A stretch of 64,000 bases of DNA from Kordiimonadales bacterium IMCC3096. Lineage in GTDB: Bacteria; Pseudomonadota; Alphaproteobacteria; Minwuiales; Minwuiaceae. The notes below the pieces were generated by a model, which was not told where the DNA came from, searched no databases, and saw only the letters and a program-made list of their open reading frames with translations. The position numbers were made by a program, and so were the translations under genes. This document shows positions 30,635-41,331 of this stretch, piece by piece; within the stretch, counting starts at the first letter, position 1, and every line of letters starts with the position of its first letter. Location of the stretch: NCBI GenBank assembly GCA_016865035.1, contig CP018227.1, positions 1,210,001 to 1,274,000 on the forward strand. Direction: 5' to 3'.

Positions 30635-32935
30635 ATGGCACGCAACAGGAAGAGCACCGAAGGCAAGCCGAAGAGCCGCGCCCGCCGCCGTTTCCTGATC
30701 GGCAGCACCGTGGCCGCAGGCGGCCTGTTCGTCGGCTGGCAGCTGCTGGGCGGCGGCGCCCCCACCGATCCCGCCACGCTGCTGGACCCCGGCGCGGACG
30801 AGGCCGCGCTGAATGCCTGGGTGAAGATCGCCCGCGACGGAACGGTCACCATTGCCGTGCCCCGCAGCGAGATGGGCCAGGGCATCCACACCGCCCTGCC
30901 GATGATCCTGGCGGAGGAACTGGACGCCGACTTCGACCGGGTCGAGATCATCGACGCGAAGGTCGACAGGATCTACGTCAATGACGTCATGCTGCCGGAA
31001 GGCTTTCCCTTCGGCCCGCACGACGAGAGCTTCATTGCCCGTCAGGCCCGCGCCACCGGACGCTGGCTGTCCGGCGTGATCGCGGTCCAGGCCACCGGCG
31101 GTTCGACCAGTGTGCGTGCCGGGTGGCAGCCGATGCGGGAAGCCGGCGCCATGGCCCGGGAGATGCTGAAACAGGCGGCGGCAACGCGCCTCGGCACCCC
31201 TGTGGCCAGCCTGAAGACCGAACGCGGCGAAGTCGTGGACCCGGCGTCGGGCAGGCGTATCGGCTATGGCGAGCTTGCCGCCGACGCGGCCGGCGTGAAA
31301 CTGGCCGAGGTCCCGCCCCTGCGCGCGCCCTCGCAGTTCCGCATCATCGGCCAACCGAAGCAGCGGCTGGACATTCCCGCCAAGGTCGATGGCACCGCGA
31401 CCTTCGGCATCGACGTCCGCCTGCCGGACATGCTGTTCGCGGCGGTGAAACATCCACCTGTGGTGGGCGCAAGCGTGACACGCTTCGACCCGGCGCAGGT
31501 GCAGCGGATGCCCGGCGTCGTAAAGACCGTGGCTGTTCCCGGCGGCGTTGCCGTCATTGCCGACAGCACCTGGCGGGCGAAGCAGGCCATCGACGCACTG
31601 GATATCGAGTACGACCTGGGCGAGACGCCCGATTTCTCCACCGACGCGCTGTTCGACAGCTACGAGGCCGCGCTTTCCGAAGATGGCTTCGGCTATCAGG
31701 ATGACGGCGAAGCGGTCGAGATGCTGGAGGCCGCGGGCAGCAACGTGCTGGAGATGACCTACCGCACGCCGTTCCTGGCCCACGCGCCGATGGAACCGAT
31801 GAACTGTACCGCGCGCATGGACGGCGACAGGCTGGAAGTCTGGGCGCCGACCCAGGCACCGTCCGTCAGCCGCTGGATCGCGGCCGGCCAGGCCGACATG
31901 GACGAGGACAGGGTGACCATCAACGTGACCTATCTGGGTGGCGGTTTCGGGCGTCGTGGGGAGCCGGACTTCATCCGCCAGGCCGTCGCCTGCGCCATGG
32001 CCGTGCCCGGACGCGGCGTGCAGGTGGTCTGGTCGCGGGAGGAAGACATCCGTCAGGACACCTATCGCCCGGCGACCCTGGCGCATTTCCGTGTCACCAC
32101 CGACGGCGAAGGCTATCCCGTTGCCTGGGCCAACAAGCTTGTCGGCCCCTCAACCTCCGGCCAGGCGACCATGCGCTACATTCCCTTCGGCTCCGATTCC
32201 GGACCCGACCGGACCACGGTCGATGGCGCCGCATGGCTGCCCTATGCCATTCCCAACATGCGGGTGGAACACATCCTGTCACGCGTGCCGGTGCGGATCG
32301 GCTTCTGGCGCTCCGTCGGCCATTCCCAGAATGCCTTCTATTCGGAGGCCGTGATCGACGAACTGGCCCATGCCGCAGGCAAGGACCCCTACGCCTATCG
32401 CATGCATCTGCTGGCAGACAGCCCCAGGTACGCCAGGGTGCTGCAGACCGTGGCACGGATGGCCGACTGGGAAGCCGGCGCACCGGCAGGCCGCGCGCGG
32501 GGCATCGCCCTGCACGAGAGCTTCGGCAGCATCGTTGCCCAGGTAGCGGAGGTCTCGCTGGACGACGGTCAGCCCCGGGTTCACCGGGTCTGGTGCGCGG
32601 TCGATGCGGGCATCGTCATCAACCCCGACACCATCGTCGCCCAGATGCAGGGCGGCATCGTCTACGGCCTGACCGCCGCGCTCTATGGCGAAATCACCTT
32701 CGCGGACGGCGCACCGCAGCAGTCCAACTTCCCGGACTACGAAATGATCCGCCTCTCCACCATGCCGACCATCGAGACGGAGATCATTGCCTCGACGGAG
32801 GCGCCGGGCGGTGCCGGCGAACCCGGCACACCGCCCATTGCACCCGCCGTCACCAATGCCCTGTTCGCCCTGACCGGCCAGCGCGCCCGCGAGCTGCCCC
32901 TGTCCCGCCATGACTGGACCACGACGGGAAGCTGA
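30635..32935 (+). CDS. iorB: Molybdenum hydroxylase large subunit (IorB-like), Tat-exported
   Basis: 766 residues. A Tat signal begins with KSRARRRFLIGSTVAAGGLF, placing the enzyme in the periplasm. The xanthine-dehydrogenase-type blocks that follow include MGQGIHTALPMILAEELD, QKR-type linker FGIDVRLPDMLFAAVKHPP, YLGGGFGRRGEPDF, SVGHSQNAFYSEAVIDELA and, near the C-terminus, GGAGEPGTPPIAPAVTNA with the catalytic Glu. With IorA it would hydroxylate an N-heterocycle or oxidise an aldehyde; the true substrate is unknown. No XdhC-type maturation factor is adjacent. Confidence 0.9.
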   Translation: MARNRKSTEGKPKSRARRRFLIGSTVAAGGLFVGWQLLGGGAPTDPATLLDPGADEAALNAWVKIARDGTVTIAVPRSEMGQGIHTALPMILAEELDADFDRVEIIDAKVDRIYVNDVMLPEGFPFGPHDESFIARQARATGRWLSGVIAVQATGGSTSVRAGWQPMREAGAMAREMLKQAAATRLGTPVASLKTERGEVVDPASGRRIGYGELAADAAGVKLAEVPPLRAPSQFRIIGQPKQRLDIPAKVDGTATFGIDVRLPDMLFAAVKHPPVVGASVTRFDPAQVQRMPGVVKTVAVPGGVAVIADSTWRAKQAIDALDIEYDLGETPDFSTDALFDSYEAALSEDGFGYQDDGEAVEMLEAAGSNVLEMTYRTPFLAHAPMEPMNCTARMDGDRLEVWAPTQAPSVSRWIAAGQADMDEDRVTINVTYLGGGFGRRGEPDFIRQAVACAMAVPGRGVQVVWSREEDIRQDTYRPATLAHFRVTTDGEGYPVAWANKLVGPSTSGQATMRYIPFGSDSGPDRTTVDGAAWLPYAIPNMRVEHILSRVPVRIGFWRSVGHSQNAFYSEAVIDELAHAAGKDPYAYRMHLLADSPRYARVLQTVARMADWEAGAPAGRARGIALHESFGSIVAQVAEVSLDDGQPRVHRVWCAVDAGIVINPDTIVAQMQGGIVYGLTAALYGEITFADGAPQQSNFPDYEMIRLSTMPTIETEIIASTEAPGGAGEPGTPPIAPAVTNALFALTGQRARELPLSRHDWTTTGS

Positions 32936-33511: not shown

Positions 33512-35710
33512 TCAATCAACTGTCGGGGCATGCCGGTCGTCGATCAGACGCGTCGAGCGGCGGAAGGTCAGGTACGCCCAGGCCCATTCCAGCGCCACGG
33601 AGAGCTGATCGCGCTTCGAGGTCAGGAACATCACGTGGACCACGCCCCAGAACCACCAGGCAACAGGTCCGGAGATCCTCAGCCGTCCCAGGTCCGCCAC
33701 TGCAGAGGCCCGGCCGATGGTGGCCAGATTCCCGGCATGGCGATAGCGGAAGGCGCCAGGGGCCTTCGCCCGCGTCAGGCGGGCGTTGATGACCCTGGCC
33801 ACATGGGCGCCACCCTGCTTTGCGGCGGGGGCCAGGCCAGGCACCGGCTGACCGTCCCAGCCATCACTGGCAGCCGTATCGCCGACGACGAACAGTTCCG
33901 GATGTCCGGGCACGCACAGGTTCGCGTCCACCTTCACCCGCCCGGCACGGTCCGCTTCCGCCCCCAGCCAGCGCGCCGCAGGGGAGGCCATGACCCCCGC
34001 AGCCCAGAGCGCCGTGCGCGCGGCAATCCGCTCCTCCCCCACCGTCACACCCTCCGCATCGATCCCGGTGACCCGGCTGCCCAGACGCACCTCGACGCCG
34101 AGCCTTTCCAGCGATTCCCTGGTGCGGCGGGAAAGCTCCGGCGGGAACGGCGGCAGCAGGCGATCCGCACTCTGCACCAGGATGACGCGCGCGTTGGCGG
34201 GGTCGGCATTGCGGAACTCCCCGCGCATGCCGTGATGCGCCAGTTCGGCAATCGCCCCGGCCAACTCGACGCCGGTCGGGCCGCCGCCGACGACAACGAA
34301 GGTCATCCAGGCGGCGCGTTCGGTCGGGTCCATGCACTCCTCTGCCGCCTCGAAGGCACCCAGGATCCGGCCCCGGATCTCTGTCGCGTCCGGGATCTTC
34401 TTCAGACCCGGAGCGAACTGTTCCCACCCGTCCTTGCCGAAATAGGCATGGCGCGCCCCGGTGGCGATGACCAGATGGTCGTAGCCAATGGCCGTCCCGC
34501 CGATCAGGACCTGGCGCCCTGCCGTGTCCACATCGGTCACCCGCCCCATCAGGACCCGCACATTGGGCTGGTCGCGGAAGATCTCCCGGATCGGGCTGGC
34601 GATGTCGGCGGGGGACAGTCCGGCCGTTGCAACCTGATACAGCAGCGGCTGGAACAGGTGATAGTTGCGACGGTCGATCAGGGTGATCCGGCAGGGGCTG
34701 TGCTTCAGTCCCTGCACGGCGGCGACACCACCGAAGCCCGCGCCCACGACCACCACATGCGGCAGTTCACCATCATCCCAGCGGGCAGGCTTCAGCGCGG
34801 CGGGGTAGCGTGCCACCAGCAACCGCTGCAACAGGGTATCGAGCGCCAGTGGTCCCGGCCCGCGCAGCGCAATCAGGCCCAGGATCGCCAGCCACCAGAA
34901 GTGATCCGCATGATCAAGATAGGTGAACTGGATCACCAGGGTCATCGCGATCAGGGGCAGGGTCGCGAGGCGGCAGAAGAGACCCAGCAGGATCGCCACC
35001 GGGGCTGCCAGCTCGAAGAACGTCGCCAGCCAGGCCGCGAGCGCAGGCGGGATCAGCGGCACCGCATATTCGTACTGGAACAGCAGGATGGTGTTCCCGA
35101 AGTCATCGATCTTGGTCAGACCGGAGGCGAAGAATATCCAGGCGATCCAGGCCCTGAACAGCACGAGCCAGAGTGGTGCGAGGAACCTGTCCGACCACTG
35201 CCAGAACCGGTGGAAGGTTCCGACCAGCGGCAGCGGCAGGGTCGCAAAGCCGCGCCCCAGAAGGCGGTCGAGCGCGATCGGACCGGCCCCTGCCACCACG
35301 TACCAGCCCAGGAACAGCGCCCAGAAGATGTGGACGTTCAGTTCCAGATAGACGGACTGGATCACCAGACTGAGGATGGCCATCGGCAGCGCCACCAGCC
35401 GCGTTGCCAATCCCAGCATCAGCGCCCCGCCACCCACGATCTCGATGGCCGCCCCCAGCAGTGCCGCGAGCCAGGGTGCCAGCCAGGAGACCGGATATTC
35501 ATGGGTTGCGAGGAAGACCGCGCTGTCCCAGTTCGCGAGTTTGACCAGGCCGGAAAGCAGGAACGTCTGGCCGATCCAGATGCGCAGCACCAGCTCGAGC
35601 ACGGGCCAGCCGATGTTGCCCAGCACATCCTGGATCCGTGCGATCCGGCGATGGACCGGCGCCAGCCAGGCAGGCGCTCTTGCTACGGGCACGAAATCGA
35701 GTTCAGCCAT
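33512..35710 (-). CDS. DoxX-DoxX-type-II NADH dehydrogenase fusion
   Basis: 732 residues with AGGAGG before ATG 35710. Residues about 30-150 and 175-300 are two DoxX-type four-helix membrane modules (LRIWIGQTFLLSGLVKLANW and FRAWIAWIFFASGLTKIDDF mark the same position in each). From about residue 320 comes a complete NDH-2/Ndh-like flavoprotein. It has the FAD loop VVVVGAGFGGVAAVQGL, YHLFQPLLYQVATAGLSP, the NAD loop FVVVGGGPTGVELAGAIAEL and the second FAD site LFVVGDTA. The C-terminus ends in a membrane-associating segment (PVAWWFWGVVHVMFLTS). It should oxidise NAD(P)H to quinone at the membrane, tied to DoxX modules that in other systems join redox-stress complexes. Divergent from an ECF sigma gene with a shared symmetric promoter. 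Confidence 0.9.
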   Translation of the reverse strand: MAELDFVPVARAPAWLAPVHRRIARIQDVLGNIGWPVLELVLRIWIGQTFLLSGLVKLANWDSAVFLATHEYPVSWLAPWLAALLGAAIEIVGGGALMLGLATRLVALPMAILSLVIQSVYLELNVHIFWALFLGWYVVAGAGPIALDRLLGRGFATLPLPLVGTFHRFWQWSDRFLAPLWLVLFRAWIAWIFFASGLTKIDDFGNTILLFQYEYAVPLIPPALAAWLATFFELAAPVAILLGLFCRLATLPLIAMTLVIQFTYLDHADHFWWLAILGLIALRGPGPLALDTLLQRLLVARYPAALKPARWDDGELPHVVVVGAGFGGVAAVQGLKHSPCRITLIDRRNYHLFQPLLYQVATAGLSPADIASPIREIFRDQPNVRVLMGRVTDVDTAGRQVLIGGTAIGYDHLVIATGARHAYFGKDGWEQFAPGLKKIPDATEIRGRILGAFEAAEECMDPTERAAWMTFVVVGGGPTGVELAGAIAELAHHGMRGEFRNADPANARVILVQSADRLLPPFPPELSRRTRESLERLGVEVRLGSRVTGIDAEGVTVGEERIAARTALWAAGVMASPAARWLGAEADRAGRVKVDANLCVPGHPELFVVGDTAASDGWDGQPVPGLAPAAKQGGAHVARVINARLTRAKAPGAFRYRHAGNLATIGRASAVADLGRLRISGPVAWWFWGVVHVMFLTSKRDQLSVALEWAWAYLTFRRSTRLIDDRHAPTVD

Positions 35711-35736: not shown

Positions 35737-35784
35737 TGTAACCTTTGTCTCCCTTCAGACGTCACAGAGACAGGTTCGGTTACA
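35737..35784. promoter_or_regulatory. Symmetric divergent ECF-type promoter pair
   Basis: Plus strand: TGTAACC (35737-35743), 16 bp, CGTC (35760-35763). Minus strand: TGTAACC (35784-35778), 16 bp, CGTC (35761-35758). The two -10-like elements overlap in the palindrome GACGTC (35758-35763), so the whole 48 bp is TGTAACC-N14-GACGTC-N14-GGTTACA. AAC-containing -35 and CGTC -10 boxes are the pattern of ECF promoters, and GTAACC is reported for the Caulobacter SigF group. One side faces the sigma gene, the other the DoxX/NDH-2 gene. Confidence 0.72.
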
Positions 35785-35892
35785 CACCAGCCGTTGCAAC
35801 AGGGTCACGAAAGTCCGCCAGAAGTGCCGTTTGACAGAATCCAGCCGTCGCAGGATGCTACGCCATGCTCCCCACCTGGGCCAGAACACCAC

Positions 35893-36543
35893 ATGCGCTG
35901 GACAAGTTCCCTATTGCTGCTCTGCCTCGCAAAGGCAGATGACCCCGTCGGCACGGCCCGGCGTGTCGGCAGCCTCGCGGCAGCACTTGGCGCCACTTGC
36001 GACATGGATGAGGAACAGGTCATCCGGGCGGCGCTGGCGCGCATGGCCGGTGTCGCGATGCGTTACGTCGAGAACCATGATGAGGCCATGGACTGCGCGC
36101 AGGATGCCCTGATCCGGGCCGTCAATGCATTCGACGGCTTCGAGGGGCGATCCAGCGTCAGTTCGTGGCTGCACCGCATTGCCGTCAACTGCGCCCTGGA
36201 GCAGTTGCGGCGGCGCGGGCGCAGGCAGGAAGTTTCCATCGACGACCTGATGCCGACCTTCGATGACAGTGGCATCCTGAATGACAGCCTGGTGGTGAGT
36301 GACGACAGCGCCGAGACCATCCTGCAACGGGCCGATGCCCGCGCGGCGGTTACCAGCGCCATTCAGGCGCTGCCGGAGAGCCACCGCACCGTGCTGCTGC
36401 TGCGCGATATCGAGGAGCTGAGCATCAGCGAAGTCGCGGAGAAGCTGGAGATCACGCAGGGCACGGCAAAGGTGCGCATCCACCGCGCCCGGTCGGCGCT
36501 GCGCAAGCACCTGGAACCCCTGATCGCGGGGGGACAGCTATGA
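35893..36543 (+). CDS. ECF-type RNA polymerase sigma factor
   Basis: 216 residues if started at ATG 35893; no ribosome site is evident there, and ATG 36004 or an upstream GTG (35825) are alternatives. Region 2: NHDEAMDCAQDALIRAVNAFDGFEGRSSVSSWLHRIAVNCALEQLRRR. Region 4: ALPESHRTVLLLRDIEELSISEVAEKLEITQGTAKVRIHRAR, an ECF helix-turn-helix. No regions 1 and 3. Followed with a four-base overlap by a zinc-finger anti-sigma gene. The promoter-like element at 35737 suggests autoregulation. It probably reports redox or envelope stress, by analogy with other DoxX-linked ECFs. Confidence 0.88.
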   Translation: MRWTSSLLLLCLAKADDPVGTARRVGSLAAALGATCDMDEEQVIRAALARMAGVAMRYVENHDEAMDCAQDALIRAVNAFDGFEGRSSVSSWLHRIAVNCALEQLRRRGRRQEVSIDDLMPTFDDSGILNDSLVVSDDSAETILQRADARAAVTSAIQALPESHRTVLLLRDIEELSISEVAEKLEITQGTAKVRIHRARSALRKHLEPLIAGGQL

Positions 36544-36911: not shown

Positions 36912-36934
36912 AGGCTGGCCGGACTGTTCGTGGG

Positions 36935-37053
36935 CCGTGCCGCCCCTCTCCCCCACCCGGCCCCCCATTCAGGATACTCCCCTGGGTGGCCGGGTGGGGG
37001 AGAGGGGCGGCACGGTCTACCGACAGAATCCTCTCCAGAGGGGCGGCACGGTC
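36935..37053. repeat. Dispersed palindromic repeat, copy 1 with extra partial arm
   Basis: Perfect 28-bp inverted repeat: arms 36935-36962 and 36988-37015, core CCCCTCTCCCCCACCCGGCC, loop of 25 bp. A second piece of the right arm (AGAGGGGCGGCACGGTC) recurs at 37037-37053. Related copies lie at 41222 and 50491. Located between convergent genes; as RNA it would form a long hairpin. Confidence 0.88.
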
Positions 37054-37070
37054 AGCACGCAGACGAAATC

Positions 37071-41034: not shown

Positions 41035-41221
41035 GGCGTTCCTCTTTCGTCTTCAGCAATGGCCGACCCCCAACGGGCATGACCAGAGAAATAGATACCG
41101 GTCCGGCGAACCCGCGTTCGCCAGTCGCGGGGTCTATAACATGGTCATTCCGGCAGGCCAAGGTGTATGTGGCCGAGTCGTTCGTGGTCCCCGGCCTGGC
41201 CTCTCGCGGTTCATGTGCTGA

Positions 41222-41303
41222 CCCCGGCCAGCCCTCTCCCCCTCCCGACCACCCACGCGAGTATCCTGATGGGTGGTCGGGAGGGGGAGAGGGCTGGCCG
41301 GGG
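41222..41303. repeat. Dispersed palindromic repeat, copy 2
   Basis: A perfect 34-bp inverted repeat, arms 41222-41255 and 41270-41303, around a 14-bp loop containing GTATCCTGA. The core CCCTCTCCCCCTCCCGACCA is shared with copy 3 at 50491. It fills most of the roughly 300-bp space between rpsU and the acyl-CoA dehydrogenase gene; nothing else is apparent there. Confidence 0.92.
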
Positions 41304-41331
41304 GACCAAAGAGATCCCAGGCGCAGCGCCC

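Follow-up and report, generated by a model that had tools for sequence, protein, structure and literature searches.

Bidirectional promoters of sigma70 were reportedly described by Warman et al. in 2021. In the accounts cited here for this class of promoter, 18 bp is the commonest spacing between the divergent starts and 7-25 bp is the defining range (PMC10268837, PMC12825309), and in E. coli competition between the two directions is described only under strong transcription (PMC12825309). Among ECF sigma factors, Caulobacter SigF (ECF16) is reported to drive itself together with a DUF2282-DUF692-DUF2063-DoxX operon (PMC3511200). Bidirectional promoters, divergent pairs of an ECF sigma factor and its output, and ECF autoregulation are all already known; in the open-access literature searched, we found no published ECF sigma factor and output that share one mirrored core. 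Here, we describe a natural and compact example of promoter geometry that may restrain feedback within an ECF circuit.

Results

The window (the whole stretch of DNA that was analysed, 64,000 nucleotides from Kordiimonadales bacterium IMCC3096) contains a 48-bp block of the form TGTAACC-N14-GACGTC-N14-GGTTACA, the arms and centre of which are a perfect palindrome (Table 1). The -35 to -10 spacing is identical on both sides, and the -10 elements on opposite strands overlap by two bases. Because the ecfF transcript is reported to start 6 bp after the -10 (PMC3420878), we place the starts near 35769 on the plus strand and near 35751-35752 on the minus strand; from the element positions, these divergent starts are predicted to lie 17-19 bp apart. 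An initial annotation of this DNA had described the block as a mirrored pair of ECF promoters located exactly between a sigma/anti-sigma operon and a DoxX/NDH-2 fusion. Its motifs and spacing proved exact, and Pfam matches agree on the neighbours: the fusion lies on one side, and on the other are an ECF sigma factor and a zf-HC2 protein. The block does lie between both operons, but "exactly between" was loosely put, as 26 bp separate it from the enzyme start codon and 108 bp from the likely sigma start. TGTAACC-N16-CGTC is present in the window only as the block pair, and none of 100 shuffles held two. The two spacers of the block match by eye at 4 of 16 places, and therefore an inverted duplication is unlikely.

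Table 1. Positions of promoter elements and genes at the mirrored block
Feature	Position	Strand	Basis or remarks
Block, TGTAACC-N14-GACGTC-N14-GGTTACA	35737..35784		Window sequence; GACGTC at 35758-35763, GGTTACA at 35778-35784
-35 TGTAACC, predicted sigma-facing promoter	35737..35743	+	Present in G001; missing from G004 and G005
-10 CGTC, predicted sigma-facing promoter	35760..35763	+	Predicted start near 35769-35770, by analogy with ecfF
-35 TGTAACC, predicted enzyme-facing promoter	35778..35784	-	TGTAACC in G001 and G005, GGTAACC in G004
-10 CGTC, predicted enzyme-facing promoter	35758..35761	-	CGTC in G001 and G004, CATC in G005
TTGACA-N17-GATGCT, sigma70-like promoter of sigma gene	35831..35859	+	Hexamers invariant in 4/4 loci
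ECF sigma factor, 216 aa from ATG at 35893	35893..36543	+	Pfam
zf-HC2 anti-sigma candidate, 123 aa	36540..36911	+	Pfam
DoxX-DoxX-NDH-2 fusion, 732 aa, putative output	33512..35710	-	ORF list, Pfam
ATC-hydrolase-family protein, 172 aa	32945..33463	-	ORF list, Pfam

The sigma start was set at its ATG because the start region ATGCGCTGG is aligned in all four loci of the genus that have this gene layout (below). HX3CX2C is the family mark of zinc-binding (ZAS-type) anti-sigma factors, and the zf-HC2 protein carries it as H67, C71 and C74; these three residues and C41 are invariant in 7 of 7 rows of the alignment, and would suit a metal or redox switch. On the other side of the block, the ATC-hydrolase-family gene also adjoins the DoxX-NDH-2 gene in G001, G004 and G005 by DNA match, and the two are probably co-transcribed as one operon. 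A sigma70-like promoter of the sigma gene begins 47 bp beyond the block. This reading rests on conservation, as a simple consensus scan makes no call at TTGACA-N17-GATGCT, and since the element is fully conserved, the block is probably not the sole promoter of the sigma gene. With regard to the wider surroundings, the DoxX part of the fusion scores 73.6 bits against the HvfX copper-RiPP maturation model, just under the cut-off of 80. Short stretches of the window at 36925-37058 and 41171-41304 have matches at many sites in both G001 and G002; by eye the former is an inverted repeat, and they possibly belong to a family of interspersed palindromic repeats.

The search within the genus covered seven genomes, G000 (this genome) to G006. 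Sigma and fusion occur in the same divergent layout in four of them (G000, G001, G004 and G005), and neither was found in G002, G003 or G006 by this search. For G002, contig C66 (76,814 bases) ends at a point corresponding to base 30,952 of the window, and no strong match among those listed covers the stretch from there to about 41,210; an assembly gap is therefore likely, though not proven. A four-way alignment of the loci with this layout reveals that the enzyme-facing promoter is kept in all four, unaltered in G001 and with one base changed in each of G004 (GGTAACC-N16-CGTC) and G005 (TGTAACC-N16-CATC). The sigma-facing TGTAACC is found in G000 and G001 only. Between these two genomes, 0 of 20 ECF element bases differ, whereas 30 of the 150 remaining intergenic bases do (Fisher p 0.016, one genome pair), and with the sigma70-like hexamers added, 0 of 32 element bases differ (p 0.0017, the same single pair). 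Judged from sequence comparison, the block is a real ECF promoter, as the initial annotation had held, and a -35/-10 pair is found before genes at a spacing that does not vary; the conserved part is the enzyme-facing promoter and not the symmetric pair. The annotation had proposed looking for both elements in homologous loci, and had named loci with the genes but not the pair as evidence against it. The pair is kept in G001; the sigma-facing half is missing from two of the four loci that share this gene layout, and therefore this evidence has in part been found.

Of 385 genomes of the class, two contain the mirror form TGTAAC-N17-CG-N17-GTTACA: G000 and G388, the latter with another centre. 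The backward control occurs in 3 of 385, and so the mirror shape is rare, yet its count is not above chance. In the 4,291,441 bases of this genome there are four exact TGTAACC-N16-CGTC sites compared with one for the backward control. Two of these are the block pair; of the other two, one precedes a bufferin-type operon and one stands before a PAS-domain ORF. Over the seven genus genomes, TGTAACC-N16-CRTC has 13 sites versus 17 for its backward control, and therefore the numbers alone show nothing, and position and conservation carry the case. Sites L004 (G000) and L124, L125 and L130 (relatives) were rejected as targets, being unshared or located in or at the ends of ORFs.

The bufferin-type operon (L085 3033-6374; G000:C1 about 2015032-2018373) consists of YHS, DUF2282, MNIO, DUF2063 and DoxX genes and is preceded by the same ECF promoter motif in one-way form. 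Profile scans used the YHS and DUF2282 proteins from G000, and the MNIO, DUF2063 and DoxX proteins of the G002 copy. The MNIO enzyme of the latter passes the BufB model. The precursor passes Pfam DUF2282 and fails the NCBIfam bufferin model, hence the name bufferin-type. The operon promoter reads TGTAACC-N16-CGTC in G000, G001 and G002, and TGTAACC-N16-CATC in G004; the G005 contig breaks off within the operon. G003 and G006, which have the MNIO gene and neither sigma nor fusion, have 0 TGTAACC-N16-CRTC sites each, at the bufferin-type operon or elsewhere in the genome. G002 is an exception to the co-occurrence of motif and sigma, as the bufferin promoter motif is present and the window-type sigma was not found in the assembly. 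As a separate observation, locus L089 of G018 has two back-to-back GTAAC-type promoters about 515-543 nt before an MNIO match, with their -35 elements facing each other, unlike the window block.

Distant homologues of the sigma factor were collected as a 13-locus set, comprising 12 of 15 distant genomes at E<=1e-35 plus G008, and their flanks were read. They are 39-47% identical to the window sigma, and no DoxX-NDH-2 fusion was found within the stretches around them. Within 300 nt, GTAAC-N17-C[AG]TC points away from the sigma gene at 7 of the 13 loci and is absent in this orientation at 6, whereas the same motif facing towards the sigma gene is found at a single locus. In 500 dinucleotide shuffles the away-facing motif was found at a mean of 0.012 loci (maximum 1), and the remainder of the distant loci holds 12 matches in 234,026 strand-bases. 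The C[AG]TC form was allowed after seeing the data, namely G005 and a count of words in the upstream regions of the 13 homologues, in which GATGC was paired with GTT, TTA and TAC at 16, 17 and 18 bases in 6/13 each (maxima of 3-5 for those word pairs in a single-base shuffle control, n=20). An earlier scan had required CG in the -10, with a single sigma-facing site, in L076. The only held-out case for the relaxed motif is L133, a homologue found later among 398 genomes of the phylum, and here the motif occurs facing away from the sigma gene but not towards it. Three genomes outside the 13-locus count were also scanned (G009, G079 and G347), with an away-facing site in one of three, about 500 nt upstream. 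L042 has no motif site in 353 bp, G045 (L040) was scanned with the older pattern only, and the upstream sequence is short in L070 (376 bp) and L071 (732 bp).

The surroundings of the away-facing sites vary. At L069, L072 and L074 the first base of the promoter is 39-59 nt from the start of a DUF3179 gene; DUF3179 genes are the divergent partners of the sigma homologue in this one other family. The next longer ORF on the promoter strand begins about 374 nt away at L079 and 291 nt away at L080. In the case of L076 and L077, the site is directed across an opposite-strand ORF and not into a divergent gene, and that ORF looks MauE/DoxX-like (20.7 bits in L076, under the cut-off of 27; by eye in L077). 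Homologues of the fusion at L047 and L048, from two other families and 55-56% identical, have no such promoter upstream, and therefore the motif goes with the sigma factor rather than with the enzyme. In this sigma family, the rule appears to be that a one-way promoter points away from the sigma gene.

Placement of the window sigma among described ECF groups was also attempted. Membership of ECF16 was rejected, as the neighbour of the window sigma is a zf-HC2 protein and not NrsF (DUF1109), and the -10 is CGTC or CATC and not CGAA; NrsF was not found in any of nine genomes of the Minwuia family searched. ECF41 sigmas carry an extra C-terminal domain of their own, whereas the window sigma (216 aa) matched only sigma families in Pfam and has a separate anti-sigma gene. 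ECF26 was rejected because the -35 here is TGTAACC and the ECF26 consensus is given as GGAATA (PMC6180224). Among the matches listed (25 of 92 families), none to an NCBIfam equivalog reached the cut-off.

Discussion

The block is most likely read by the neighbouring sigma. Recognition by this factor had been proposed from the letters of the window, and is supported by the motif beside distant homologues and by its presence and absence in congeners. A different reader, such as an ECF41-like sigma or one missed by the family search, would be in keeping with the N16 spacing and CGTC reported for ECF41-type promoters (S. meliloti RpoE9, PMC6180224), with the bufferin motif of G002, which lacks a window-type sigma in its assembly, and with two weaker matches among the six to region 4 in G000. 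The four that were examined are the window sigma, a protein judged by eye to be ECF41-like, and two others; apart from the window sigma, none of these is at an exact TGTAACC-N16-CGTC site. However, TGTCACA-N16-CGTC precedes the ECF41-like sigma in both G000 and G002 (L115 3457-3483 and L119 5846-5872), the TGTAAC-type motif accompanies the window-type sigma in other families as well, and G003 and G006, both without that sigma, lack the motif. Recognition by another sigma is thus quite improbable. Within L115, a carboxymuconolactone-decarboxylase-like ORF (by eye) is also behind TGTCACA-N16-CGTC.

We think it fairly probable that the adjacent sigma uses the block as a two-way ECF promoter, in which the enzyme arm is the older and regulator and output limit each other. 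On release from the anti-sigma, the sigma factor with RNA polymerase would bind the block in either orientation. Leftward binding would lead to transcription of DoxX-NDH-2 and probably of the ATC-hydrolase-like gene, and rightward binding to transcription of sigma and anti-sigma. As the -10 elements share two bases and the starts are predicted to be 17-19 bp apart, one polymerase would exclude the other; competition between the directions would follow from this geometry. Induction would be joint but mutually limiting, with basal sigma supplied from the sigma70-like element. The enzyme-facing promoter would be older, and the sigma-facing one would have been gained in the lineage of G000 and G001; we favour gain, rather than loss in G004 and G005, on the basis of the distant homologues. 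GACGTC reads CGTC on both strands, and therefore a second TGTAACC at the right distance would have sufficed. We infer the activity of each arm, the mutual exclusion and the evolutionary direction from these features. Judging from the targets, the signal may be copper or redox stress; bufferins are reported to bind copper (PMC12452194).

Other readings of the block were considered. That only the enzyme-facing promoter works, the sigma-facing half being weak or accidental and sigma being made from the sigma70-like promoter, we regard as unlikely, albeit deserving of weight: the four close loci all have TTGACA-N17-GATGCT in invariant form, but two of them are without the sigma-facing half, and 12 of the 13 distant homologues have no sigma-facing site. 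Indeed, in G004 and G005 sigma is presumably made from the sigma70-like promoter. Nevertheless, the sigma-facing -35 is a full TGTAACC, the same in G000 and G001 while 30 of 150 other intergenic bases differ, and its spacing is exactly that of the enzyme side. It is also rather improbable that the main effect is negative feedback, with polymerase at the enzyme promoter blocking sigma transcription as RNAP-HrpL at hrpJ does on hrpL. Such control is described for an ECF sigma and its divergent output (PMC5263251), and the two sites of the block cannot be filled together; yet the sigma70-like promoter, being 47 bp beyond the block, need not be covered, and sigma would still switch on the arm that faces its own operon. 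The perfectly palindromic arms and centre could instead suggest an operator for a dimeric transcription factor. This we rejected as highly improbable, because relatives keep a single half at promoter spacing, and the bufferin copies and the distant copies are one-way.

If the two-way reading with mutual limitation is correct, each initiation for the output would block one for the regulator. It is possible, and we put it forward tentatively, that by sharing a self-complementary core the sigma and its output have their ratio set and runaway autoactivation limited, and that this was achieved by gain of a single -35. The one-way version in sister species represents a natural control for the block. 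More broadly, GTAAC-N17-C[AG]TC pointing away from the sigma gene is a testable rule for this sigma family, and an ECF family with a zinc-finger anti-sigma is linked to a bufferin-type operon in a genus in which no NrsF was found.

Several described systems share parts of this arrangement. As reported for Caulobacter SigF, the promoter is of the GTAACC-N16 type; the SigF -10 is given as CGAA and its anti-sigma is of the NrsF type, compared with CGTC and a zf-HC2 protein here (PMC3511200), and unlike in Caulobacter, the bufferin-type operon here is elsewhere in the genome. The N16-type spacing and CGTC are like those given for ECF41 (S. meliloti RpoE9), the -35 of which is TGTCAC and not TGTAACC (PMC6180224). 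In Brucella BcrS-BcrX, sigma and output are likewise divergent and both have TGTAACC promoters (PMC8315932), but these are listed as separate, 38 bp apart, with -35 elements facing each other and no shared -10 (PMC8315932, Table 1). The hrpL-hrpJ pair of Pseudomonas syringae is also an ECF sigma divergent from its output, and polymerase at the output promoter is reported to affect sigma; hrpL, however, is described as sigma54-dependent, and the sites as adjacent and not mirrored (PMC5263251). The closest geometry is that of the bidirectional promoters of sigma70, in which -10 elements on opposite strands overlap, as in the block, and binding in one direction is reported to exclude the other, as would follow here (PMC10268837, PMC12825309); the predicted distance between starts here is also within their range of 7-25 bp (PMC10268837). 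Those promoters are described as having a near-symmetric TATAAT (PMC10268837, PMC12825309), whereas in the block the -10 is of the ECF type and each side has a full -35; unlike in the sigma70 case, one of the two directions of the block encodes the sigma factor itself.
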